NCBI GenBank assembly: GCA_017478085.1
Contig: JAFVEE010000008.1
Span: forward strand, 1-32,434
Length of the DNA stretch: 32,434 bases
Direction of reading: 5' to 3'
Source: Prevotella sp.
GTDB taxonomy: Bacteria > Bacteroidota > Bacteroidia > Bacteroidales > Bacteroidaceae
The notes beneath the pieces were generated by a model. It was not told the origin of the DNA. It saw only the letters and a list, made by a program, of their open reading frames with translations, and did no database searches. Shown piece by piece: positions 2,592-29,929 of the stretch. Numbering within the stretch: the stretch's first letter is position 1; each line of letters starts with the position of its first letter. The position numbers and the translations under genes are program-made.

Positions 2592-2750
2592 ATGAACAAG
2601 AAAGTATATCAGAAGCCTGCCATGCAGGTAGTGAAGATTCAACACCAGTGCAACATCCTTGCTGGCAGTCCCGGAACCCATGATGAGTATAGCAGTGGCC
2701 CCAGCTACTCCCGCGAGGCTCGCGGCTGGTCCAACGACGAGGACGAGTAA
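2592..2750 (+). CDS. Small 52-residue peptide of unknown function
   Basis: An ATG at 2592 opens 52 codons ending in TAA at 2748-2750. The peptide begins MNKKVYQKPAMQVVKIQHQ, continues NILAGSPG, and ends in an acidic stretch (WSNDEDE). Short proteins with the layout basic N-terminus, KP-x-M-x-VV, a small hydrophobic stretch with Gly/Ser, then a variable polar tail are common in Prevotella and relatives, often annotated only as hypothetical. No signal peptide or transmembrane segment is evident. The start is preceded by A/T-rich sequence (AAATCCATAGAAAACA), as is usual in Bacteroidota. The gene follows palindromic element copy A by about 30 bases. It could be a regulatory peptide or the precursor of a secreted peptide; I cannot tell which. 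Confidence 0.65.
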   Translation: MNKKVYQKPAMQVVKIQHQCNILAGSPGTHDEYSSGPSYSREARGWSNDEDE

Positions 2751-2793
2751 CCCGCCCCCGCCATGACACGACCGACCATCCTACAGACACAAA

Positions 2794-2828
2794 CATCCCC
2801 CGCACGGCGCAAGGCTGTGCAGGGGATG
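2794..2828 (-). terminator. Hairpin between convergent peptide and toxin genes
   Basis: CATCCCCCGCAC (2794-2805) pairs with GTGCAGGGGATG (2817-2828), a 12-bp stem with one C-A mismatch and an 11-base loop. On the minus strand it is followed by TTTGTGTCT, so it probably ends the toxin-antitoxin transcript. It also lies 44 bases after the stop of the convergent peptide gene and might serve both. Confidence 0.5.
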
Positions 2829-2855
2829 CTGTTATGGTCGTTGAGAAGAAGAGGT

Positions 2856-3176
2856 TTATTCGCAGAACATCTGCCTGAAGACATCTTGCAGCGTGGCAAT
2901 CTCATCACTGGCAAGCGTTGCCGCACGATTCTTCAGTCGCCGCTTGTCAATAGTGCGTATCTGGTCGGTTGCAATCTCGCCATCACGACCCATGATATGA
3001 CACCTCACGCGATAAGGATAGCCATGAATAGCCGATGTCACGGGAACAATTATCACGGTGTCAAGATGGTCGTTCAACTCCTGGGGACTGACAATGACGC
3101 AAGGGCGAATCTTCTGCATCTCGGCACCGATGGTGGGGTTCAGATCAACCCAGTACACATCATACTGGCTTACCAT
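2856..3176 (-). CDS. MazF/PemK-family endoribonuclease toxin
   Basis: This 106-residue protein has the MazF/PemK family pattern. It opens with QYDVYWVDLNPTIGAEMQKI, where the Gly-x-Glu-x-x-Lys and following RPCVIVSP form the conserved strand-loop of the family, and continues with VIIVPVTS. In the family, an Arg in the RP motif and a Ser/Thr in the second motif take part in RNA cleavage; both motifs are present. It is a cytoplasmic, sequence-selective mRNA-cutting toxin neutralised by its antitoxin. Length is typical (about 105-120). The start overlaps the last 7 bases of the antitoxin gene, which suggests translational coupling with antitoxin made first. It is probably expressed from the promoter at 3434-3464. 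The RNA sequence it cuts cannot be read from the protein. Confidence 0.9.
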   Translation of the reverse strand: MVSQYDVYWVDLNPTIGAEMQKIRPCVIVSPQELNDHLDTVIIVPVTSAIHGYPYRVRCHIMGRDGEIATDQIRTIDKRRLKNRAATLASDEIATLQDVFRQMFCE

Positions 3177-3406
3177 TTCCAGTCCTCCATCGTTTCGTCC
3201 TCAAACACGTCGGCAGCCATCAGCCTGTCCTCGCCGTCGGCATGTGCCTGCTTTGCCGCAGCAGCCCAGCCCTTGCGCGTGGCCGCGCCTTGCGACTGCT
3301 CCGTGAGGAACATCACCACAAGATGTTTCTCCTCGGGGGTCAGCTCCTGCATCATCCCGATATACGGAGCCATCCGCGTAGATTTCAATCTCTGTATTGT
3401 CGTCAT
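3170..3406 (-). CDS. Antitoxin partner of the MazF-type toxin
   Basis: This 78-residue protein lies directly upstream of and overlaps the toxin gene by 7 bases, the usual order of a type II module. The middle contains LTPEEKHLVVMFLTEQ, a helical segment; the C-terminus is acidic with aromatic residues (DVFEDETMEDWKW). Acidic, Trp-containing tails like this are how MazE-type antitoxins occupy the toxin's active site, so I infer that this part binds the toxin. I do not see an obvious AbrB-type or ribbon-helix-helix DNA-binding domain, so whether it autoregulates is unclear. The assignment depends mainly on position and size. The start is the first Met after a good promoter at 3434-3464. Confidence 0.8.
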   Translation of the reverse strand: MTTIQRLKSTRMAPYIGMMQELTPEEKHLVVMFLTEQSQGAATRKGWAAAAKQAHADGEDRLMAADVFEDETMEDWKW

Positions 3407-3433
3407 AATCCTAACATATCTGGTTTATGGCAG

Positions 3434-3464
3434 CAAAGTTACACATTATTTCCGAAACGACAAA
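3434..3464 (-). promoter_or_regulatory. Bacteroidota-type promoter of the toxin-antitoxin module
   Basis: On the minus strand TTTTG (top-strand 3461-3465) is followed after 19 bp by TAACTTTG (3434-3441). This matches the Bacteroidota consensus TTTG, 19-21 bp, TAnnTTTG. The antitoxin start codon is 28 bases downstream. Confidence 0.75.
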
Positions 3465-3510
3465 AGAAACAGCAATAAATCGTCAAGCTCCGCGACACGG
3501 GCAGCATCCA

Positions 3511-3640
3511 GTCTTTGTCTAAGGAGTCAAGGAGAGAAGGAGTAGCGATGCCTGCAAAAAAATCCTATACTCCTAAACTCCTTAGACAAAAAACAAAGTC
3601 TTAATCCTTAGAATCCTTGAATCCTTAGAATCCTAAAAAC
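3511..3640 (+). repeat. GTCTAAGGAG palindromic element, copy B
   Basis: The left arm starts at 3517 (GTCTAAGGAGTCAAGGAG) and the right arm (CTCCTAAACTCCTTAGAC) ends at 3588, with flanking T- and A-runs. The tail at 3601-3633 (TTAATCCTTAGAATCC and relatives) matches the tail of copy A. The 359-bp gap between antitoxin (3406) and SusD (3766) therefore holds, in order, the toxin-antitoxin promoter, this element and the 22-bp palindrome array. Confidence 0.8.
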
Positions 3641-3743
3641 AACGGAGCCTCCATTGCGATGCGATGGGGGCTCCGTTGCGTTGTAATGGAGGCTTCGTTA
3701 GATTGCAACGGAGGCCCGGTTAAGGGGTAACGGAGGCTCCGTT
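3641..3743. repeat. Five-unit array of 15-bp palindromes at 22-bp period, locus 1
   Basis: Units start at 3641, 3663, 3685, 3707 and 3729. Each is a 15-mer related to AACGGAGGCTCCGTT, separated by 7-bp spacers of variable sequence. Only the last unit is a perfect palindrome; the others carry one to three departures. The array begins 22 bp beyond the stop codon of the last gene of the seven-gene unit. Its function is unknown; an RNA 3' end or a multi-site protein-binding region are the obvious options. Confidence 0.9.
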
Positions 3744-21018: not shown

Positions 21019-21049
21019 TTGTTAGTGATTCGGGGGGAGGGGGGCTTTT

Positions 21050-21179
21050 GGGACTGATTGGGAGTCTTTGGGAGTTGTTGGGACTCTTTGGGACTTGTTG
21101 GGACTTGTTGGGACTTATTGGGAGTCTTTGGGATTAATTGGGACTGAGTGGGACTAATTGGGATTCATTGGGAGCCTCA
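21050..21179. repeat. Thirteen GGG units at exact 10-bp period
   Basis: GGG starts at 21050, 21060 and every 10 bp to 21170 on the top strand, with unit consensus GGGACTNNTT. Just before it, 21032-21044 is six G, A, six G. The period is not a multiple of three, so the stretch is not coding. The 467-bp gap between 20993 and 21461 holds this array, the CCGTCT array and a hairpin. Confidence 0.92.
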
Positions 21180-21222: not shown

Positions 21223-21363
21223 CCGTCTAAAAAATCCGTTCGTCCGTCTATCCGTCTAAAAAAACCGTTCGTCCGTCTATCCGTCTTAAAACCCGTCTAT
21301 CCGTCTTAAAAACCGTTCATCCGTCTATCCGTCTTGAAACCATCCGTCTACCCGTCTAAAAAA
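21223..21363. repeat. CCGTCT-rich tandem array
   Basis: CCGTCT occurs eleven times in 21223-21357 and once more at 21405. The longer unit is CCGTTCGTCCGTCTATCCGT followed by CTAAAA, about 27-29 bp, seen at 21236, 21265 and (with one change) 21313, with shortened units at 21292 and 21340. Spacers are A-runs. Confidence 0.85.
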
Positions 21364-21460: not shown

Positions 21461-24400
21461 TTACTTCAGGTTCAGCTTCTTCACGATCACGGCGCCGTTG
21501 CTGAGCGTCTGGCGCATGATCACGATACCCTTCTGCGGAGCCAGCGTGCGCTGACCGTTCATGGTGTAGTACTCGGTGCGGAGCACGGTAGCAGCCATGT
21601 TGCCGGCCACCTCCTTGATGCTGGTCACGCCGTCGCCAGTAGCCTCCTTGCTGCTGTTGGCACCATAGTAGAAGAGCTGGAAGTCGTCCATGATAGCCCA
21701 GGTGTTAGCGTCCTGAGTCTTGATACCGATGCGCAGCGAGCCGTCGGCACCCACCTTGGCATACACCTTGTTCTGGTAAGGCTTCGACTCGAGGTTGAAG
21801 AACACTACCGACGACACCATGTCGCTGGGAATGTAGACCGTCTCGCCAGCCTCGTTGGTGGTGCTGCCGCCAACCTTGGTCTCAACCGTCTCCTCGTCGC
21901 CGGTCTCCTCGTTCATCTTGGTCTCGATGATGGTGGGCTGCTCGGCCTGTGCACCCTCCAGGATGGCCTTCACCAGCTTCTGGTTCTCAGTGGGCTGCTC
22001 GGCCTTCAGGTCGGTGTTGGCATAGAGCACGGTGTTGGTCGACTCGGCATTGTCCTTGCGGAAGAAGGCGTTGGCACGCACCTCGTAGATGCCCTCGGGC
22101 AGACCGTAGAACACCTGGTACATATCGAATGCCTTGTGGTAGTACTCCAGAGCCAGGGCACCCTTCTGGGTGTCGTCGTTACCGAAGTTGTAGCCGTCGG
22201 TACCCTTCCAGCCGTCGATGGCGTTGGTCTCAACACCCTCGATGACCTTCGAGAACTTAGCGCTCTGAACCATCTGCGTGAGCTCCTGAGGATTCTCGTC
22301 GCTGCCATAGAACTGAGTGGGAGCGTACTTCTTGCTGATGCAAGCATAGAACTTCTCGATCCACTCGTCGATGTTGGCCAGCGTGAGCTGCTTGCTGCTG
22401 GCAGCCTCGTCGAACTGGTTGCCCAGGCTCTCGGCCTCCATCACCCAGTCGTAGGTCACGATGCCCTCGTCGAGCTCGCCCGACTCCGACACGGCGGTCA
22501 GGGCGTCGTCGAGATCCTGGCGAGCGTCGAACACCTCGTCGACCTTGGCCAGCTGCTCCTTGTAGGCATCGATCTGCTTCATCAGGTCGTCGATCTCGCT
22601 GTCGAAGATGTCGTTCTGCGAAGCACGCAGGCGCAGGGCGCTGGTCCAGTCGCTGATGTTGGCCACGATGTAGCCATTGTCGCCCAGGTCGAGGATGGCC
22701 TGATCCAGAGCCTCAAGGCTGCTGTTCAGGTTGGCCATGCGCTCCTTGGCCTCGTTCAGGCCGTTCTTCGAAGCATAGAGGTCGGCCAGCACCTGGAACA
22801 TGGCGGGGCCGTCGGTGCCACCGATGGCAGCACGGGCAGCAGCCAGTGCATTCTGGATGCCCTCGGCCACGTCCTTGGTCAGACCAGCCGACAGCGAGGT
22901 CTCCACGTCGGCGATGGCAGCCTTCAGGGCCTCGTCTACCTTGGTGTGTTCGGTACCCCAGTAGGTCAGTTTGAAGTTATCGAAGATCACCCACGAGTCG
23001 CCCAGCTGGTTCGAGCTACCCTTCACGCCAATGCGCATGGGCTCACCGGCCGAGATCACAGCACCGTAGGCCGTGTTCATGTACATACCGTCGGCGAAGG
23101 CCACGGCAGCACTTGCCATGCCGTTGGGGAACCAGTAGACGGTACCGTCGTCGGCCGTGTTCGAGTTGTAGTCAGAGCTCTTCTTGTTAGTGGTCAGCAC
23201 GTTGCCCTCATCATCATAGCCAGCATAGAAGCCCTCGTCGGTAATCTGCTTGGGATCGCCGAAGATGTTGGTGAACGGGGTGGTGTTGTTGTTCATATAA
23301 ATATAGGTGGGAACCTGCATGTTGGGGTTGGCCTTGTAGTCAGCCCAGGCAGTGCCACGGCCATAGCGGTAGAAGCCCTGCACGCTGATCTCATACACGC
23401 CGATGGGCATGTCGTTCACCTGCTGATAGACATCGAACGAAGCGGTGTTCCAGCACTCGGCGCAGCTGTTCGACACAGCCACGTTGCCGGTCAGGTTGCC
23501 CTCGCGGGTCCAGCCCGTCCAGCTGTTGTCGAAGGCGGGGTTGGCCATACGGTCGGTCAGCTCAGTACCAGGCTTCACCTCAACACCCTTGATGATGTCG
23601 TCGATCATGCTGCGCAGGAAGGCAATCTCGGCTACGAGAGCCTCGTTGTCCATAGCACGCAACGCAATGATATGAATGGCAGAACCATTCTCGAAGTATC
23701 CGGGATACTTGTCAACATCCTGGTTGCAATAGCTGTGGAGCATCTGCACCACCATCGAGGAGCTGCCCTGGTCGATATACTTCTGCACGAAGTCCTTGGC
23801 GATAGCCACGCTGTCCTCATAGACCTTCCACAGGCGGATGTTCTCGCTCAGCGCGTTCTGGGCATTCTCCAGGTTAGCCTTGTAGGCCAGCACGTCGTCC
23901 TTGCCATTCACCTCGGGAATAGCCTTGGCAGCATTGTAGGCATCAACATACGACTGGGTGACAGCCGTAGCGGTGATCTCGGGAGCGGCATCGGCCAGCA
24001 CCTTGGCCCAGCCATAGAAGCGGTCGGCACCATTGCCGAAGAAGGTCAGCGAGAAGTCGTCGAAGATGGCCCATTCTGTAGCAATGTGATTTTCCTTCTT
24101 CACGCCAATGCGCAGGGTAGCGTCGGCGGGAATCTCCATGAACACGTAGTTCTTGTAGAGACCCAGCTCGTGCATGCAGTAGTTGGCAGAAGTCATGTAA
24201 TTAGGAATCCAGAAGCCGTTCGACTGAATCATGTCGGTGGTGCTTGAGGGAGGATTCTCAACGCTGGGAGCGCCAGCATAGATAGAAGCGATGGGGGTCT
24301 CCTCGGTCTGGTCGCCCACGGTTCCATAGAGGCGTGCAGCCTTAGAGGCAGCATCATTAGCAGTAAAGTGCTCGTAAGCCTCACTTGAGCTACCAGCACG

Positions 24401-25396
24401 ATAGAAAGCGTTCACGCCAATGGCATACAATCCAGGATAGAGCACCTTAACATCTTGATAGGTATTAAAGTCACGATCATAGTGCTCGGCATTGGTCGAA
24501 GTGTTGCCACCAGCACCGAATGCAGTGCCCTGCCAGCCCGTGAAGTTACCCACGGTGTCGAAGGTAGCGTTCGTAATCCAGCCCGAAGCGTCCTGCGGGT
24601 TGTGGCCCGTGGCGTTCTGCAGGTTGTTGGCCTTGGCCTCGTTGATTTCATCGATAGCAGCGTTAATCTGCTCCAGTGTTGCGTCCAGATTGTTGTAGAC
24701 GGCAACCCACTTGGCCACGTCGAGACCAGCAGCCTCGGCGCTCTCGATGGCAGCTTTCAGTTTCACAGACTGATCGTAAATATCCTTCAAGGGGCCATAG
24801 GCATTCCATTCGGGAACGGAATAGAACTCCCAGTCAATCCAGCCTTCCTCGAGGAACGGCGACAGGGCGCTGCCAGCAGCAGCATCGACGGCTGTACCCA
24901 CGAAGCCAGGATTGTTGGTGGGGTTCAGGGAAGGATTGGCGGGCGAAGCCTGCAGGCGATAGGTGTTTGCACCGTCGCCGGGCACTACCTGCCAGAAATA
25001 GTCAGGCTGCGTGCCACGGTCAACGAACATAGCGGTAGCGCTGTCGAAGAACACGAGCTTCCACGAATTCTTCACGGGAGAGAAATCATTGAAGAGCAGA
25101 GCAGCATCCTCAAGGGTCTTGCCATCGGGCACGGTGAAGCGGGCCAGGTTGGCACCGTCGCCCAGCGAGGCCTGTGTGCCCCAAGAGTTACCCTCGGTAA
25201 AGAACTGCTGTGCGCCCTTGTTGAAGAGCACATAGTAATTGCCTACCACGAACTGAGCGGGAGTACGCTCGATGGTCGACACGTCAACCGTGGGTGACGG
25301 TGCCTCCGGGGCAGTACGCTCAATGAGGTCAGCAGCATTTGCACTGAGGCCAACGAGCCACAGCGCACTCATGACGAGTAGTTTTGTAAACTTCAT
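21461..25396 (-). CDS. Large secreted protein with three lectin-like modules
   Basis: A 1311-residue protein with a signal peptide cleaved near SANA (residue 21). An N-terminal beta-rich domain covers about 45-195. Three related modules then alternate with helical stretches: about 268-455, 605-825 and 1040-1270. Each module begins with a phrase like NATFD...GWQG or NPAFDNSWTGW, has a PxGxYxIxVxAFYR strand, and ends with the signature TLRIGVK...W-x-I-x-D-D/N-F-x-L-x-Y/F-x-G. This layout suggests galactose-binding-like beta-sandwiches that bind carbohydrate. The helical spacers (DATLEQINAAIDEINEAKAN) resemble FIVAR-type stalks. No catalytic motif is seen. The C-terminus (YYTMNGQRTLAPQKGIVIM, then a Lys-rich end) resembles Prevotella secretion tails. 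It is transcribed toward the fasciclin-SusCD unit, but a terminator probably separates them. Function is inferred, not known. Confidence 0.8.
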   Translation of the reverse strand: MKFTKLLVMSALWLVGLSANAADLIERTAPEAPSPTVDVSTIERTPAQFVVGNYYVLFNKGAQQFFTEGNSWGTQASLGDGANLARFTVPDGKTLEDAALLFNDFSPVKNSWKLVFFDSATAMFVDRGTQPDYFWQVVPGDGANTYRLQASPANPSLNPTNNPGFVGTAVDAAAGSALSPFLEEGWIDWEFYSVPEWNAYGPLKDIYDQSVKLKAAIESAEAAGLDVAKWVAVYNNLDATLEQINAAIDEINEAKANNLQNATGHNPQDASGWITNATFDTVGNFTGWQGTAFGAGGNTSTNAEHYDRDFNTYQDVKVLYPGLYAIGVNAFYRAGSSSEAYEHFTANDAASKAARLYGTVGDQTEETPIASIYAGAPSVENPPSSTTDMIQSNGFWIPNYMTSANYCMHELGLYKNYVFMEIPADATLRIGVKKENHIATEWAIFDDFSLTFFGNGADRFYGWAKVLADAAPEITATAVTQSYVDAYNAAKAIPEVNGKDDVLAYKANLENAQNALSENIRLWKVYEDSVAIAKDFVQKYIDQGSSSMVVQMLHSYCNQDVDKYPGYFENGSAIHIIALRAMDNEALVAEIAFLRSMIDDIIKGVEVKPGTELTDRMANPAFDNSWTGWTREGNLTGNVAVSNSCAECWNTASFDVYQQVNDMPIGVYEISVQGFYRYGRGTAWADYKANPNMQVPTYIYMNNNTTPFTNIFGDPKQITDEGFYAGYDDEGNVLTTNKKSSDYNSNTADDGTVYWFPNGMASAAVAFADGMYMNTAYGAVISAGEPMRIGVKGSSNQLGDSWVIFDNFKLTYWGTEHTKVDEALKAAIADVETSLSAGLTKDVAEGIQNALAAARAAIGGTDGPAMFQVLADLYASKNGLNEAKERMANLNSSLEALDQAILDLGDNGYIVANISDWTSALRLRASQNDIFDSEIDDLMKQIDAYKEQLAKVDEVFDARQDLDDALTAVSESGELDEGIVTYDWVMEAESLGNQFDEAASSKQLTLANIDEWIEKFYACISKKYAPTQFYGSDENPQELTQMVQSAKFSKVIEGVETNAIDGWKGTDGYNFGNDDTQKGALALEYYHKAFDMYQVFYGLPEGIYEVRANAFFRKDNAESTNTVLYANTDLKAEQPTENQKLVKAILEGAQAEQPTIIETKMNEETGDEETVETKVGGSTTNEAGETVYIPSDMVSSVVFFNLESKPYQNKVYAKVGADGSLRIGIKTQDANTWAIMDDFQLFYYGANSSKEATGDGVTSIKEVAGNMAATVLRTEYYTMNGQRTLAPQKGIVIMRQTLSNGAVIVKKLNLK

Positions 25397-25613: not shown

Positions 25614-25731
25614 AACGGAGGCTCCGTTAATGCTCAACGGGGGCCCCGTTGAACGTCAATGGAGGCTCCGTTGATGTTCAGCCGAGGCTCCGTTAATGGT
25701 CAACGGAGGCTCCGTTAATTTTCAACGGAAA
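25614..25731. repeat. Five-unit array of 15-bp palindromes at 22-bp period, locus 2
   Basis: Units start at 25614, 25636, 25658, 25680 and 25702, with a partial sixth (AACGGA) at 25724. The type sequence AACGGAGGCTCCGTT is the same as at 3641-3743. Unit 2 is AACGGGGGCCCCGTT, changed in both arms so that symmetry is kept. The 7-bp spacers nearly all end in TC. In the 588-bp gap 25397-25984 this array lies between an AT-rich leader (25397-25613) and the long inverted repeat. Confidence 0.92.
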
Positions 25732-25749
25732 TATGGGTATTTTTTTAAA

Positions 25750-25967
25750 CGCGAATGACCGTGAATGAAACGTGAATTTGCCGTGAATATTTTTCGCCTG
25801 CGGCGCTACATGAATATTCATAAATGGACATAAATTAATCAAAAATATTTATGAAAAATTTATGGTTATTTATGGTCATTTATGTAGCGCCGCAGGCGAA
25901 AAAAATATTCACGGCAAATTCACGTTTCATTCACGGTCATTCACGTAGCGCCGCAGGCGAAAAAAAG
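25750..25967. repeat. Long inverted-repeat element downstream of the hydrolase gene
   Basis: The arm 25750-25811 is the reverse complement of 25882-25945 apart from one mismatch and a 2-base length difference in an A-run. The sequence between is itself partly symmetrical (ATAAATGGACATAAAT against ATTTATGGTCATTTAT). The word GTAGCGCCGCAGGCGAAAAA occurs here at 25884 and 25945 and inverted at 25790. It directly follows the hydrolase stop codon and may end that transcript. Confidence 0.88.
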
Positions 25968-25984: not shown

Positions 25985-28900
25985 TCACCTGAGGACCTTG
26001 CGTACTGCGGTGCCCTGCTTCTCGATGCGGAGGCCACGGGTGGCGGAGGAGGCGGGACGGCCCTGGAGGTCGTAGACGGCGGGGGCGGTGGTCGAAGGGA
26101 TAGCAGCGGAAGAGACGGCATCGGCGATGTGGCCGAAGCTCATCTTCACCCCCTGCCACGACGTGAGCTTCGTGAGCTGGTCGCGACCGGGCAGGTAGGC
26201 CTCGCGGGCAGGCAGGGTGTACATGCCATTCACGAAGTCGGCCTCGGTGAGCTCCTTCCACTCGCCGTCGACAAAGACGATGGTGCCCACGCTGCCGGGC
26301 AGGAAGGAGAAGAGCATGCTGCTGGTGAAGGTGCCGAAGAGGCCGTTGCTGCCCGAACGGGCCAGCTTGACGGCCTCGCCGCTCTCAATGAAGTCGGCGT
26401 AGGGCTGGGTGGTGTAGTAGACGCACGAGTAGCCGGCCTCCTGATGGTCTATGGGCTGCAGGCAGATGTAGTCCTGACCGTCCTCGGTGAGCAGGCCGGC
26501 CACCTCGAAGAGCTGCACGCCCACGCCGGGCGCGTAGTCGTAGGGCAGACAGACGGTGCCCCAGGGGCTGGCCGCAGCCGGACGACGGAACACGGGCATC
26601 TGGTAGAGCTGGAAGGCGGTGGCACACCACCAGCCCTCGCGCTTGTCGGGATTGCCCGAGAGCGACTTGTAGGCCCCGTCGATGGCGCCCTGCTTAGAGC
26701 CCTGGAAGCCAATGGTCAGGCTGCCGCCGTCGGTCACGTAGACGGGGGTGGTGCGCAGCGTCTCCCACGGCTCTTCGGTGAGCCCCAGGGTGGGATATTC
26801 GAAGCGGTCGTAGGTGAGGGCGGGCGAGGCGACCGTCTGGCCGTCGGTGGTGGTGATGAAGGCGTGCTGGTCGGAGAGGCAGTAGTGCTCGGTGAGGGCC
26901 TTGCACTGCAGGTAGTAGAAGCCCTCGGGCAGGTTCTTCACCTCCTGCTTGATGGCCATGGTCTCGGTAGAGGTGGCGTCGACGTTGTTCCACCAGGCGT
27001 TCCAGCAGGTCAGGCCGCACACGGTGTTGCGGCGCTGGTCGCCTCCCTGGAAGGTGCCGGCCTTGCCAGTCCAGCCAGTAGAGTTGGTGGTGAAGCTGGG
27101 GTTCTCGACCAGCGAGGTGGCGGTGAAGCCGTCGAGGCCGGGCAGTCCCAGGGCGGTAAGGGCCTCGGCCTGGGCGGCCTCGCGGGCCTGGGCGGGGGCT
27201 TTCGCCAGCCGGTCCATATACTCGGCATAGCAGCGCTGCAAGCTGCCGACGAGGCTCTCAGCCGGGCCCGTCAGGCCGTCGGCCTGCTGCTTCCACTCGG
27301 CGCAGATGGCGGGATAGGAATCCTGGTAGTAGTCGATGGCGGCCTGCATGCGCTGCTGCTCGTAGGCCAGGGCATCCTGGAAAGCCTGCTCGGGGTCGTC
27401 GAAGAGGCGGCACAGCATGATCTTGTCTACCTGGCCATTGCCTAACCAGCGGAAGCTGACGGTGACCTTCTGGTGGCTGCCGGTGTCGAAGTTGCCCATC
27501 TGCAGCTGCCAGTCGCCGGTCTTGGTGGTCTGGAAGGCCAGCTCGGGCGTGCCGTCGCTGAGGGTGACGCTCTGGTAGATGCCGCCCAGGTTGCGAATCG
27601 ACACAACAAAGAGGTAGCGCGTGTTGGGCAGCACGTCGAACTCGGACTTCAGGCCGCCGGCGGTGGCATCGCCCAGGTTCGACCACGACAGCAGGTTGGC
27701 ACCGCCGTCGGGGCCTCCCACGGGAATGACCTGGAAGTTAGGGTAGCTGATGGGCAGGCCCAGGCCGTTGGTCCAGCCGGTGAAGCCCAGGTCGAAGTCG
27801 CCGTTGGTGATGATGTTGCCGCCCACGTACATGCGCTTGTCGCCCACGGTGATGGCATCGCCCGAGGTGACATCTTCGATGACGCAGGTCTGCACCGACG
27901 AGTAGAGGTCTTGCGAGAGCAGACTCTTCAGGTAGATGCGGTAGCGGTAGCCGTCGCGCGAGGCGGGGTCGGTGTAGGTATAGGTGGCGGGCACCTCCTG
28001 CTGGGCGGGCGAGGCGATGGTCTCCCAGGTCTGGCCGCCGTCGGTGCTGCGCTGCACCTGCATGTCCTTGTTCCACTCGCCGTTCTGGTCGTACCAGCTC
28101 AGGCTGGCGCTCTGGGTGCCCTTGTCGTAGGCCACGGTGAAGCGCGAGGCAGCCTTCTGGGCGGGCAGCTTGGGGGCGTGGTTGGTGCCCTGGAAGCCCA
28201 GTCCGGGGTTCTGCTGTGCATACCAGGTGCCGGCCTGGGTGAGGTTGCCGTCCTTATAGATGCGCGAGGGGTCGCGCTCGCTGTTCCAGTAGAAGTAGCG
28301 CTCCACGTAGTTCCAGGAGTTCAGCTTGTTGACGATGCTCTGCACGGCGGTGGCGTTCTGGGCCTCGGTCACGCCGCTGGCAAAGGCGCCGTTGTTGTTC
28401 CACGAGGCACCCCACACCCACTCCGAGATCCAGATGGGGCGGCCATAGCTGTTGTACCAGCCCTGCAGGTTGTTGAAGGAGCCCTCGGTCCAGTAGCAGT
28501 GCATGTCGAGGATGTCGCAACGCCAGCCACGGGCGTCGATAGAGTCCAGGAAGGCGCGCAGGTGGTTCAGCGAGCCGTCGTGGCTGGAGGGCGAACAGAG
28601 GCGCATGCCGGTGGCCATGAGGTTCTCCCAGTTGGCCAGGATCTGGTCTACCGTCTGGGGATGGTCGTCGGCGCTGTTGCCCGGCTCGTTGTTGGTCTTC
28701 AGGTGGGGGGAGTAGGTCACCTGTCCGCAGGCAGCGGCCGAGGGCCAGTCTTCGTAGATGTGATGGGGAATGCACTCGCAGTCCATGCCGCGGTCTTCGC
28801 CCAGGCCGAAGGAGTAGCAGCCCTGCACGTTGGTGGCATCGGTGGCCGCCTTGCGGGTGTCGTTGGCCAGGCCGGCCTTGCTGAAGTCGTACCAGCGGAA

Positions 28901-29521
28901 GATGCGGTAGGAAGAGATGGTCTGGTCGAGGGCCAGGGGCATAGTGGCCACCTCGAGGTCGGCATTGGCGGCAATGTAGCAACGGCTGTAGCCACGGCCT
29001 CCGGCACGGGTGGAGAAGGTGACCATATAGCCACGCTTCAGCTTGAAGGAACGAATCTGGTTGTTGAGCTTGGCGGCGCTCAGGGTGTTCATAAATCCGC
29101 CATTGTGTTCAAGGCCGAAGTCGTTCACGGCGGTGCCTTGGAAGTTCTGTTCGGAGTAGACGGTGAGGGGCTTCAGGGCCGAGGCGTAGGGCATGATGAT
29201 GCAGCCACGGTTGTACATCTTCACCTGGCAGTTGGTGTTGTTGCGGGCCTGCTCGCCGTTGATTCTGACGTGGGGCAGCAGGGCGACGGCTGCCGAGGGC
29301 TTCACGCCCTGCAGGATGAGCACGGCGTGGTCGGTGTTGACGAGGTTCACCACGCCCTCGTCGCCGAAGGGGGTCTTCGAGGTGACGACGTAGTCTACGT
29401 CGGCAGTCACGTCGACGCTGGTGGTCACCTGCGAAACGGTGGTCTTGGTGTTGGCCGCCAGCAGCTGCGCCACGGAGAGGAACAGCCCTGCAGCCACCAT
29501 AAGTAAGCGGTGTTTTTTCAT
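25985..29521 (-). CDS. Multimodular glycoside hydrolase resembling GH128
   Basis: The start is ATG 29521, giving MKKHRLLMVAAGLFLSVAQL, a proper signal peptide, and 1178 residues; an upstream in-frame Met (29593) would add 24 residues spanning the promoter. Residues about 200-450 are a TIM-barrel core of the Glyco_hydro_cc type. Glu279 in TNNEPGNSADD is the likely acid/base. Glu367 in RPIWISEWVWGA is the likely nucleophile, with DMHCYW between them. GH128 enzymes cleave beta-1,3-glucan, but the substrate here is inference and another clan GH-A family is possible. A fibronectin-III-like domain (about 455-545), a CBM-like sandwich (about 562-708: NGDFDLGFTGWTNG), a helical spacer, and a module related to those of the neighbouring 1311-residue protein (about 800-975) follow. 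The C-terminal tail is YDLQGRPASSATRGLRIE. It is secreted or surface-bound. Confidence 0.8.
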   Translation of the reverse strand: MKKHRLLMVAAGLFLSVAQLLAANTKTTVSQVTTSVDVTADVDYVVTSKTPFGDEGVVNLVNTDHAVLILQGVKPSAAVALLPHVRINGEQARNNTNCQVKMYNRGCIIMPYASALKPLTVYSEQNFQGTAVNDFGLEHNGGFMNTLSAAKLNNQIRSFKLKRGYMVTFSTRAGGRGYSRCYIAANADLEVATMPLALDQTISSYRIFRWYDFSKAGLANDTRKAATDATNVQGCYSFGLGEDRGMDCECIPHHIYEDWPSAAACGQVTYSPHLKTNNEPGNSADDHPQTVDQILANWENLMATGMRLCSPSSHDGSLNHLRAFLDSIDARGWRCDILDMHCYWTEGSFNNLQGWYNSYGRPIWISEWVWGASWNNNGAFASGVTEAQNATAVQSIVNKLNSWNYVERYFYWNSERDPSRIYKDGNLTQAGTWYAQQNPGLGFQGTNHAPKLPAQKAASRFTVAYDKGTQSASLSWYDQNGEWNKDMQVQRSTDGGQTWETIASPAQQEVPATYTYTDPASRDGYRYRIYLKSLLSQDLYSSVQTCVIEDVTSGDAITVGDKRMYVGGNIITNGDFDLGFTGWTNGLGLPISYPNFQVIPVGGPDGGANLLSWSNLGDATAGGLKSEFDVLPNTRYLFVVSIRNLGGIYQSVTLSDGTPELAFQTTKTGDWQLQMGNFDTGSHQKVTVSFRWLGNGQVDKIMLCRLFDDPEQAFQDALAYEQQRMQAAIDYYQDSYPAICAEWKQQADGLTGPAESLVGSLQRCYAEYMDRLAKAPAQAREAAQAEALTALGLPGLDGFTATSLVENPSFTTNSTGWTGKAGTFQGGDQRRNTVCGLTCWNAWWNNVDATSTETMAIKQEVKNLPEGFYYLQCKALTEHYCLSDQHAFITTTDGQTVASPALTYDRFEYPTLGLTEEPWETLRTTPVYVTDGGSLTIGFQGSKQGAIDGAYKSLSGNPDKREGWWCATAFQLYQMPVFRRPAAASPWGTVCLPYDYAPGVGVQLFEVAGLLTEDGQDYICLQPIDHQEAGYSCVYYTTQPYADFIESGEAVKLARSGSNGLFGTFTSSMLFSFLPGSVGTIVFVDGEWKELTEADFVNGMYTLPAREAYLPGRDQLTKLTSWQGVKMSFGHIADAVSSAAIPSTTAPAVYDLQGRPASSATRGLRIEKQGTAVRKVLR

Positions 29522-29554
29522 AATGGAATATTGTTTTGAGTTAGTTTCTGGCGG

Positions 29555-29586
29555 CAAAGATACGAAGTTTTTGCGAAAACAACAAA
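29555..29586 (-). promoter_or_regulatory. Bacteroidota-type promoter of the hydrolase gene
   Basis: On the minus strand TTTG (top-strand 29583-29586) is followed after 20 bp by TATCTTTG (29555-29562), an exact match to the consensus. The start codon at 29521 lies 34 bases downstream, which supports that start and excludes the longer reading frame. Confidence 0.8.
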
Positions 29587-29640
29587 TAATCAAACTTAAA
29601 AGACGAGAAAAACAGGGGGGAACGGCAATTACCGGGGGGC

Positions 29641-29917
29641 TTTTTCGCCTGCGGGGCTACGTGAATGGCTGTTCTTTTTCGCCTGCGGCACTACGTGAAT
29701 GACCGTGAATATAACGTGAATTTTTCGTGAATTTTTTCTTTTTTTCGTCTGCGACGCTACATGAATATTCATAAATGGACATGAATTAATCATAAATATT
29801 TATGGAAAATTTATGGCTATTTATGGTCATTTATGTAGCGCCGCAGGCGAAAAAATATTCACGGCAAATTCACGTTTCATTCACGGTCATTCACGTAGCG
29901 TCGCAGACGAAAAAAGT
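29641..29917. repeat. Long inverted-repeat element upstream of the hydrolase gene
   Basis: Bases 29757-29917 are nearly identical to 25806-25967 and lie in the same orientation. The left side carries three inverted copies of the core word (29641, 29675, 29741) and the right side two direct copies (29835, 29895). The inner pair is mismatched: the left copy CGTCTGCGACGCTAC matches the outer right copy exactly, not the inner one. The 465-bp gap between the hydrolase and pnp holds the hydrolase promoter, this element and the pnp terminator. Confidence 0.88.
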
Positions 29918-29929
29918 CATTCGCGTAAA

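Follow-up and report, generated by a model that had tools for sequence, protein, structure and literature searches.

The stretch of DNA analysed here, referred to as the window, comprises 32,434 nucleotides of a Prevotella sp. draft assembly (contig C101; assembly size 3.13 Mb, 76.6% complete) and contains, between two genes, a compact array of short palindromic sequences. At positions 25614-25716, five 15-bp dyads (AACGGAGSCTCCGTT) follow one another in exact 22-bp steps. Units 1 (25614-25628) and 5 (25702-25716) both read AACGGAGGCTCCGTT and match the pattern AACGGAGNCTCCGTT without a mismatch, unit 3 (AATGGAGGCTCCGTT, 25658-25672) departs from it at one position, and units 2 (AACGGGGGCCCCGTT, 25636-25650, changed in both arms) and 4 (AGCCGAGGCTCCGTT, 25680-25694) depart from it at two. 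A degenerate sixth position at 25724-25731 retains the left half-site AACGGA only (8/14 matches). A sister array of the same family, also of five units (at 3641, 3663, 3685, 3707 and 3729), occupies 3641-3743. The window thus holds 10 units with no more than three mismatches to AACGGAGNCTCCGTT where 1.37 are expected, a number reached in none of 100 shuffles, and two units in 22-bp register appear in none of 200 shuffles of the intergenic stretch and none of 30 shuffles of the window. No shuffle yields a five-unit run, and several observations of the earlier note are borne out: the array at 25614, the like five-unit 22-bp array at a second, independent locus, the difference between the spacers of the two arrays, and the perfect non-consensus palindrome formed by unit 2.

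Both flanking genes lie on the minus strand. The gene at 25985-29593, which encodes a glycosyl hydrolase catalytic core domain (PF11790, Glyco_hydro_cc), directs its 3′ end towards the array, so that the array is situated downstream of the hydrolase gene, as had been claimed. On the other side, a gene of 1311 aa (21461-25396) has its 5′ end towards the array; no Pfam domain matches it at E 0.001. Between the array and the start of this gene is a promoter-like sequence, TATATTTGC (25504-25496, minus strand), which was read from the sequence and resembles the Bacteroidetes -7 box.

The window also holds other repeats. A second dispersed repeat is present at 25749-25967 and 29640-29926, consisting of long inverted repeats made from 10-bp units of the GTGAATGACC/ATTTATGGTC type with TTTTTCGCCTGCGGCGCTAC ends. 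Identity between the two copies reaches 95% over some stretches, and part of the repeat also adjoins another array of the same genome (L057, 95% over 61 nt). About 12 copies of a 10-bp unit, TTGGGACTNN, recur with helical period between two genes at 21048-21173. Tandem CCGTCTATCCGTCTTAAAA repeats with a period of 20-48 bp occupy 21223-21363, and a similar array of CCGTCTAACCGTC resides at another locus of the relative G034 (L262). The motifs CTCCTTAGACAAAAA and AATCCTTAG are repeated at 2430-2560 and 3510-3634, where they flank the stretch 2600-3500 on both sides.

The array belongs to a large family within its own genome. The 13-mer ACGGAGNCTCCGT occurs 90 times there, as against 0 occurrences of the reversed control, and a sequence-only profile built from 13 arrays (R1) gives 164 strand matches, from 150 scored of 698 candidates. 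The stretches around these matches contain 89 runs of at least two units, of which 68 have five units, 12 six, 7 four, 1 three and 1 two; most six-unit runs have one weak end unit. The step between confident neighbouring units is 22 bp in all 327 of 327 cases, in a test that permitted 20-24 bp with a penalty. The number of arrays in this genome must be higher than that of the extracted runs, because a broader profile (R2) revealed five further arrays with other inner letters. At the loci L452, L453, L455 and L456 of the same assembly the inner letters are mixed (TTC, TTA, AAG, TAT), and adjacent units often look, by eye, like inverted versions of each other. Included among the 89 runs are three aberrant arrays (L009 at 1412-1536, L078 at 1956 and L097 at 632), which are similar to one another and in which the outer AA/TT has become TA/TA or TT/AA, mostly symmetrically.

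Conservation resides in the units and hardly in what separates them. Over 435 units the frame is Y-AA-Y-G-R-R-G-S-C-Y-Y-C-R-TT-R, with AA, the first G, GSC, the last C and TT conserved at 92-97%; mismatches are mainly transitions (524 vs 88). The five inner letters of the spacers are close to random. Spacers within an array are nonetheless more alike than shuffled ones (identity 0.41 vs 0.276), which is scarcely so for same-numbered spacers of different arrays (0.284 vs 0.271), and the likeness within arrays is far stronger in direct (z 3.7 to 6.9) than in inverted orientation (z 0.9 to 2.8). Flanking sequence is mostly unshared in this genome: 20 of 8785 alignment rows between arrays extend at least 30 bp past the array, and weak mirrored preferences are all that the flanks display. 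From the direct-type likeness of the spacers and the unshared flanks, most arrays therefore look as if they had grown locally by direct duplication and had not been copied as blocks.

A further regularity concerns the order of units. Units 1, 3 and 5 are better conserved than units 2 and 4 (P 1.4e-4), unit 3 is the best conserved of the five (P 7e-7), and the worst-kept arms are those that face unit 3, namely the right arm of unit 2 and the left arm of unit 4 (P 0.0025). From this pattern, the five units would seem to function together, as a single assembly centred on unit 3. Outside the array, a weak preference for GC or AT also seems, by eye, to alternate every 11 bp or so. The counts of arms and half-sites were made on 78 of the 89 runs, omitting the three aberrant arrays and eight runs that could not be reduced to five units, and the weaker end unit was dropped from six-unit runs; units were detected by a match threshold, whose cut-off effect was allowed for and had no visible influence.

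The symmetric double change in unit 2 had been taken in the earlier note as a sign that symmetry itself is selected, a claim that covariation between arms in a wider alignment was to decide. In that alignment the arms do not co-vary, and units with identical arms are rarer than independence predicts, so the claim is not supported. Among the 390 units of the 78 five-unit arrays there are 9 perfect non-consensus palindromes where independent arms would give 15.5, and at the two most variable pairs both arms are changed in 14 and 11 units, against expectations of 21.9 and 19.8. Units with identical arms number 90 of 428 (108.5 expected, P 0.004) in all 86 runs of the main type, or 94 of 442 (106.9 expected, P 0.03) once the three aberrant arrays are added. 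The sign is the same throughout four other genomes (6 of 97 vs 13.4, 21 of 92 vs 32.1, 8 of 73 vs 14.1 and 16 of 67 vs 19.9, the last not significant). Between adjacent arms in inverted orientation, the numbers of mismatches correlate negatively, with rho -0.18 (P 4e-4) for the two arms of one unit and rho -0.25 (P 9e-6) for arms on either side of a spacer; between direct neighbours there is no correlation. Once the conservation of the half-sites is taken into account, there is if anything a tendency away from perfect symmetry, possibly owing to the instability of strong inverted repeats. The exception is provided by the aberrant arrays, whose outer letter pairs are symmetric in 9 of 14 units (4.2 expected, P 0.006); these units come from arrays that can be aligned to each other and so are not independent. 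A single symmetric double change is thus no proof of selection for symmetry, as these numbers demonstrate.

These data also bear on the possibility that the arrays act after transcription as RNA hairpins, for example as terminators or stabilisers of mRNA. The RNA of the array at 25614-25716 folds far better than its shuffles (z -6.45), a property that inverted half-sites of any origin confer. Compensatory changes are not in excess in the main family, the outer pairs of the aberrant arrays being the exception, and the negative correlation between adjacent inverted arms also speaks against hairpins. Pairs of the G-T (wobble) type have no strand preference (246 vs 255), do not cluster by array (P 0.51 and 0.20) and have no visible link to the direction of genes. 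A long hairpin formed by the whole array, as suggested by the predicted fold, was rejected, since the centre bases of units 1 and 5 (34/75) and of units 2 and 4 (28/76) are not complementary. The window has no Rfam match at the gathering score, and hairpins have no need of an exact 22-bp spacing. Arms that are independent, or less alike than that, and the lack of wobble bias speak for recognition of half-sites and against hairpins.

The position of the arrays relative to genes is informative for the hairpin reading and for one other. By a crude gene caller, 2 of the 89 arrays overlap an ORF. The 68 arrays with both neighbours lie in 30 tandem, 20 divergent and 18 convergent gaps, a distribution not different from that of 21 other gaps (P 0.26), and the median distance from the array is 17 bp for 3′ ends of genes (n=66) and 137 bp for 5′ ends (n=70). 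In the relative G084, 0 of 40 elements are within an ORF; 17 are convergent, 19 tandem and 4 divergent, compared with 27, 50 and 24 among all 101 gaps that measure 150 bp or more, those with arrays included. Hairpins would be at home close behind stop codons and in the convergent gaps favoured in G084 (17/40 vs 27/101), but the 20 of 68 arrays in divergent gaps of the own genome are difficult to reconcile with them, and overall we consider the hairpin explanation unlikely. Even less probable is that the array is a local operator, the site of a repressor for one gene. Its location about 110 bp upstream of the promoter-like site of the gene at 21461-25396 would suit such a function; the 89 runs in the genome would not, nor would the 18 of 68 arrays in convergent gaps, where a simple repressor operator is needless.

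The arrays extend across the genus in a form that keeps the skeleton and changes the letters. A search for a four-unit skeleton in one genome per GTDB species returned at least 107 stretches, and among the matches listed 105 of 107 are titled Prevotella or Prevotellaceae; the other two are from Bacteroidales KA00344 and Parabacteroides An277. Profile R2 was built from 27 arrays drawn from many species and captures the skeleton YAA-N4-GSC-N4-TTR repeated every 22 bp. In the genus it matches 94 of 299 genomes and in the order 6 of 247, the own genome being counted in both (5 of 246 without it); of the five other matches in the order, one, from the same family, looks real by eye and four look like chance. 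Profile R1 matches 44 of the 299 genus genomes, and a pattern of exact pairs proved too strict, with one match, in the own genome. The genus survey with R2 scored 15 candidates per genome, and its copy counts are therefore lower bounds. In 205 of the 299 genus genomes there is no array at the R2 threshold, so the system is either dispensable or undetected there.

The inner letters are specific to lineages: CGGA in the own genome, TTTC/TTTG in P. koreensis, AATC/TTTC in SUG1800, AAGT/TAGT in Prevotella sp. 885 and CGGG in RUG11619. The number of units can be close to fixed, with four in 23 of 24 arrays of P. koreensis and 23 of 23 of the MAG SUG1800, and five in 11 of 13 arrays of Prevotella sp. 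885 and 68 of 89 of the own genome. In other lineages it varies, from 4 to 8 in RUG11619 and from 7 to 9 at four loci of bin.14; for P. koreensis, SUG1800, Prevotella sp. 885 and RUG11619 the loci were found with a pattern requiring at least four units. Under a permissive rule, which counts A/T-rich edges too, arrays of G084 and its sister G017 have 4 to 8 units, with a mode of 6 in G084. In two other species, arrays (L224, L174 and L221) reach 9-12 units by a loose rule, so the number of units is not fixed everywhere.

Tandem sites in helical register are also a feature of plasmid iterons and of ParR centromeres, and the arrays could conceivably be repeats of this sort that were recruited to, or left in, the chromosome. 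A search of 72,556 plasmid and 50,697 phage records returned nothing that matches the window array, and a single IMG/VR contig carries a three-unit skeleton (L258, 1391-1451), on which basis a phage or plasmid origin was rejected. The core of L258 resembles the SUG1800 type, and the contig possibly represents host DNA or a prophage flank. Some 90 chromosomal arrays are also quite unlike a plasmid origin, and descent from iterons or centromere repeats is highly improbable.

Several observations indicate that the arrays are subject to turnover, and in some species to dispersal. In Prevotella sp. 885 the array is embedded in a dispersed repeat of about 400 bp; parts of one copy from both flanks match all 12 other array loci examined at 82-94% identity, and the element has shared ends without, by eye, a clear terminal inverted repeat. 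In G084 the arrays constitute an ordered element: 21 of 22 can be framed on a CCTATTG end unit, by which the frame was chosen, and in that frame the middle spacer reads GCACGGT in 19 of 21. Between G084 and its sister G017, four arrays are anchored on both sides, of which three keep the element, while the fourth place has no array between the anchors. In the three that are kept, an entire inner block may be different within identical surroundings, as with CAGCCGC versus CCTACGG. Cores with CCGTAGG are common in G017 and absent from the best 12 listed of G084, the reverse being true of GAGCCGC. Such swaps of cores are what exchange between copies would give.

Positions, too, appear to change hands. 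One locus was followed in relatives through a neighbouring gene that is 75-80% identical over the whole match, and 0 of 29 relatives' loci, which share with the own-genome locus only the gene on one side, have two units in register; the places of arrays so appear to turn over between species. Of the best 40 pairs of neighbour genes compared with named genomes, about four share, by hand inspection, an array beside the same gene (L153/L079, L163/L105, L203/L011 and L219/L015), which on a rough estimate is no clear excess.

A serious rival explanation, although with a probability well below even, is that the arrays are neutral or selfish dispersed intergenic repeats of a PINSR-like or REP-like kind, whose half-sites serve as recognition sites for the machinery that multiplies or exchanges them, the host gaining nothing. 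The longer dispersed repeat of Prevotella sp. 885, of which the array is the core, and the common end unit and nearly constant middle spacer of the G084 arrays speak for this, as do occurrence in all types of gap, motifs that differ by species and the 205 of 299 genus genomes without an array at threshold. Against this, flanks in the own genome are mostly unshared, and register and unit number are kept despite spacers that are saturated with change, which plain neutral copies would not do. The candidate partner, a RAYT-type Y1 transposase (PF01797), was rejected: it is present in 16 of 34 genomes, once in the own genome, and is absent from the array-rich G084 and G017.

Comparison with described systems helps to delimit what is new. 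The closest described relative is probably PINSR of P. intermedia, a 188-bp intergenic repeat reported in 2015, of which one strain has 177 copies and another 184; in the accessible text of the source it is described as non-coding, without terminal inverted repeats, lineage-specific, without known function and, by PCR, absent outside one clade (PMC4755523). The present arrays are likewise intergenic, non-coding (2 of 89 overlap an ORF) and of high copy number. The array element of G084 (2 contigs; 153 strand matches, from 150 scored of 1348 candidates) resembles PINSR in setting and rough number, in a comparison by description and not by letters, and the core of the window array differs from that of the G084 element. 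However, the accessible PINSR description does not include an architecture of 22-bp half-sites, whereas here a skeleton is found genus-wide with other inner letters. The literature searched contained no other paper naming PINSR and no description of the phased 22-bp architecture.

Palindromic repeats of the REP/BIME type, which are associated with RAYT transposases, occur in more than 100 copies per genome and are regularly spaced, as far as the accessible account describes them (PMC2817692), and the arrays resemble them in both respects. But BIMEs, on that account, alternate in orientation, whereas spacers of the main family are alike in direct and hardly in inverted orientation; the few arrays of the own assembly with other inner letters do, by eye, look inverted. 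The BrickBuilt MITE of Porphyromonas gingivalis, from a related genus, is an intergenic tandem repeat with a 23-nt period, terminal inverted repeats and a variable repeat number, in 19 copies, according to the accessible part of its description (PMC4596501). Its 23-nt consensus, by our own reading of that part, is not palindromic, unlike the units described here, and a relation was rejected.

In geometry, the arrays resemble operators of the Lrp/AsnC (feast/famine) regulators. As set out in the accessible portions of the sources, these proteins bind imperfect dyads of 13-17 bp (15 bp for Ss-LrpB) with centres two or three turns apart, and Ss-LrpB dimers lie side by side, three of them wrapping about 100 bp (PMC4046817, PMC2995911); BarR provides a further source for the binding geometry of the family, again in the part accessible (PMC4977709). 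Dyads of about 15 bp at two turns are what the arrays contain (15-bp units, with all 327 steps at 22 bp). In the accessible descriptions, Lrp/AsnC operators consist of one or a few sites per control region, whereas some 90 chromosomal arrays with species-specific inner letters exist here. Genes of the Lrp/AsnC family do not discriminate, since 36 of 36 genomes have them whether or not arrays were detected; the array is therefore said to work like an Lrp-type array and not to be one. The recognition helices of two conserved Lrp paralogs are nearly invariant among the 28 of 40 genes with usable reading frames, the 12 left out including both genes of G000; near-invariant helices would fit a constant skeleton, although they prove nothing.

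The best reading of the evidence is that half-sites, and not hairpins, are conserved, in helical register and between genes. A protein-binding role, as put forward in the earlier note, would fit best with the exact two-turn spacing and with half-sites that are conserved without covariation. We regard it as about an even prospect that the array belongs to a class of operator arrays, specific to Prevotella, that lie between genes in helical phase and serve a putative DNA-binding protein. Each unit consists of two 7-bp half-sites that face each other around a G or C, and the 22-bp repeat amounts to about two helical turns, which places every dyad on the same face of the helix. The two-turn spacing, the 15-bp dyads, the half-sites that do not co-vary and the small number of units point to protein dimers arranged side by side on that face. 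Four or five such dimers might cooperatively bend or wrap about 90-110 bp, and the wrapped array could then have an architectural role or mark the boundary between one transcription unit and the next. Single arrays would grow through local direct duplication of a 22-bp unit, in some species they would have spread within larger dispersed repeats, and exchange between copies could render the inner letters alike within a species. Conceivably, however, the conserved units reflect copying history and recognition by a dispersal machinery, and not a host function.

A broader form of the operator-array reading is more tentative, and we consider it rather doubtful: that the arrays belong to a chromosome-organising system of Prevotella in which a multimeric protein wraps 90-110 bp at about 100 boundaries of transcription units, the geometry (22-bp steps, typically four to five dimers) being frozen across the genus and the recognition letters being rewritten at all sites together in each species. 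If the link to PINSR holds, what was described as a single repeat would be widened into a genus-wide architecture, which may in turn give PINSR a structural frame. Spacing that is exact to the base, a nearly fixed number of units and letters that differ between species make the arrays an unusual natural experiment on how many sites are rewritten at once. They may also offer a way to find a major DNA-binding protein in a genus that is abundant in humans and in the rumen.
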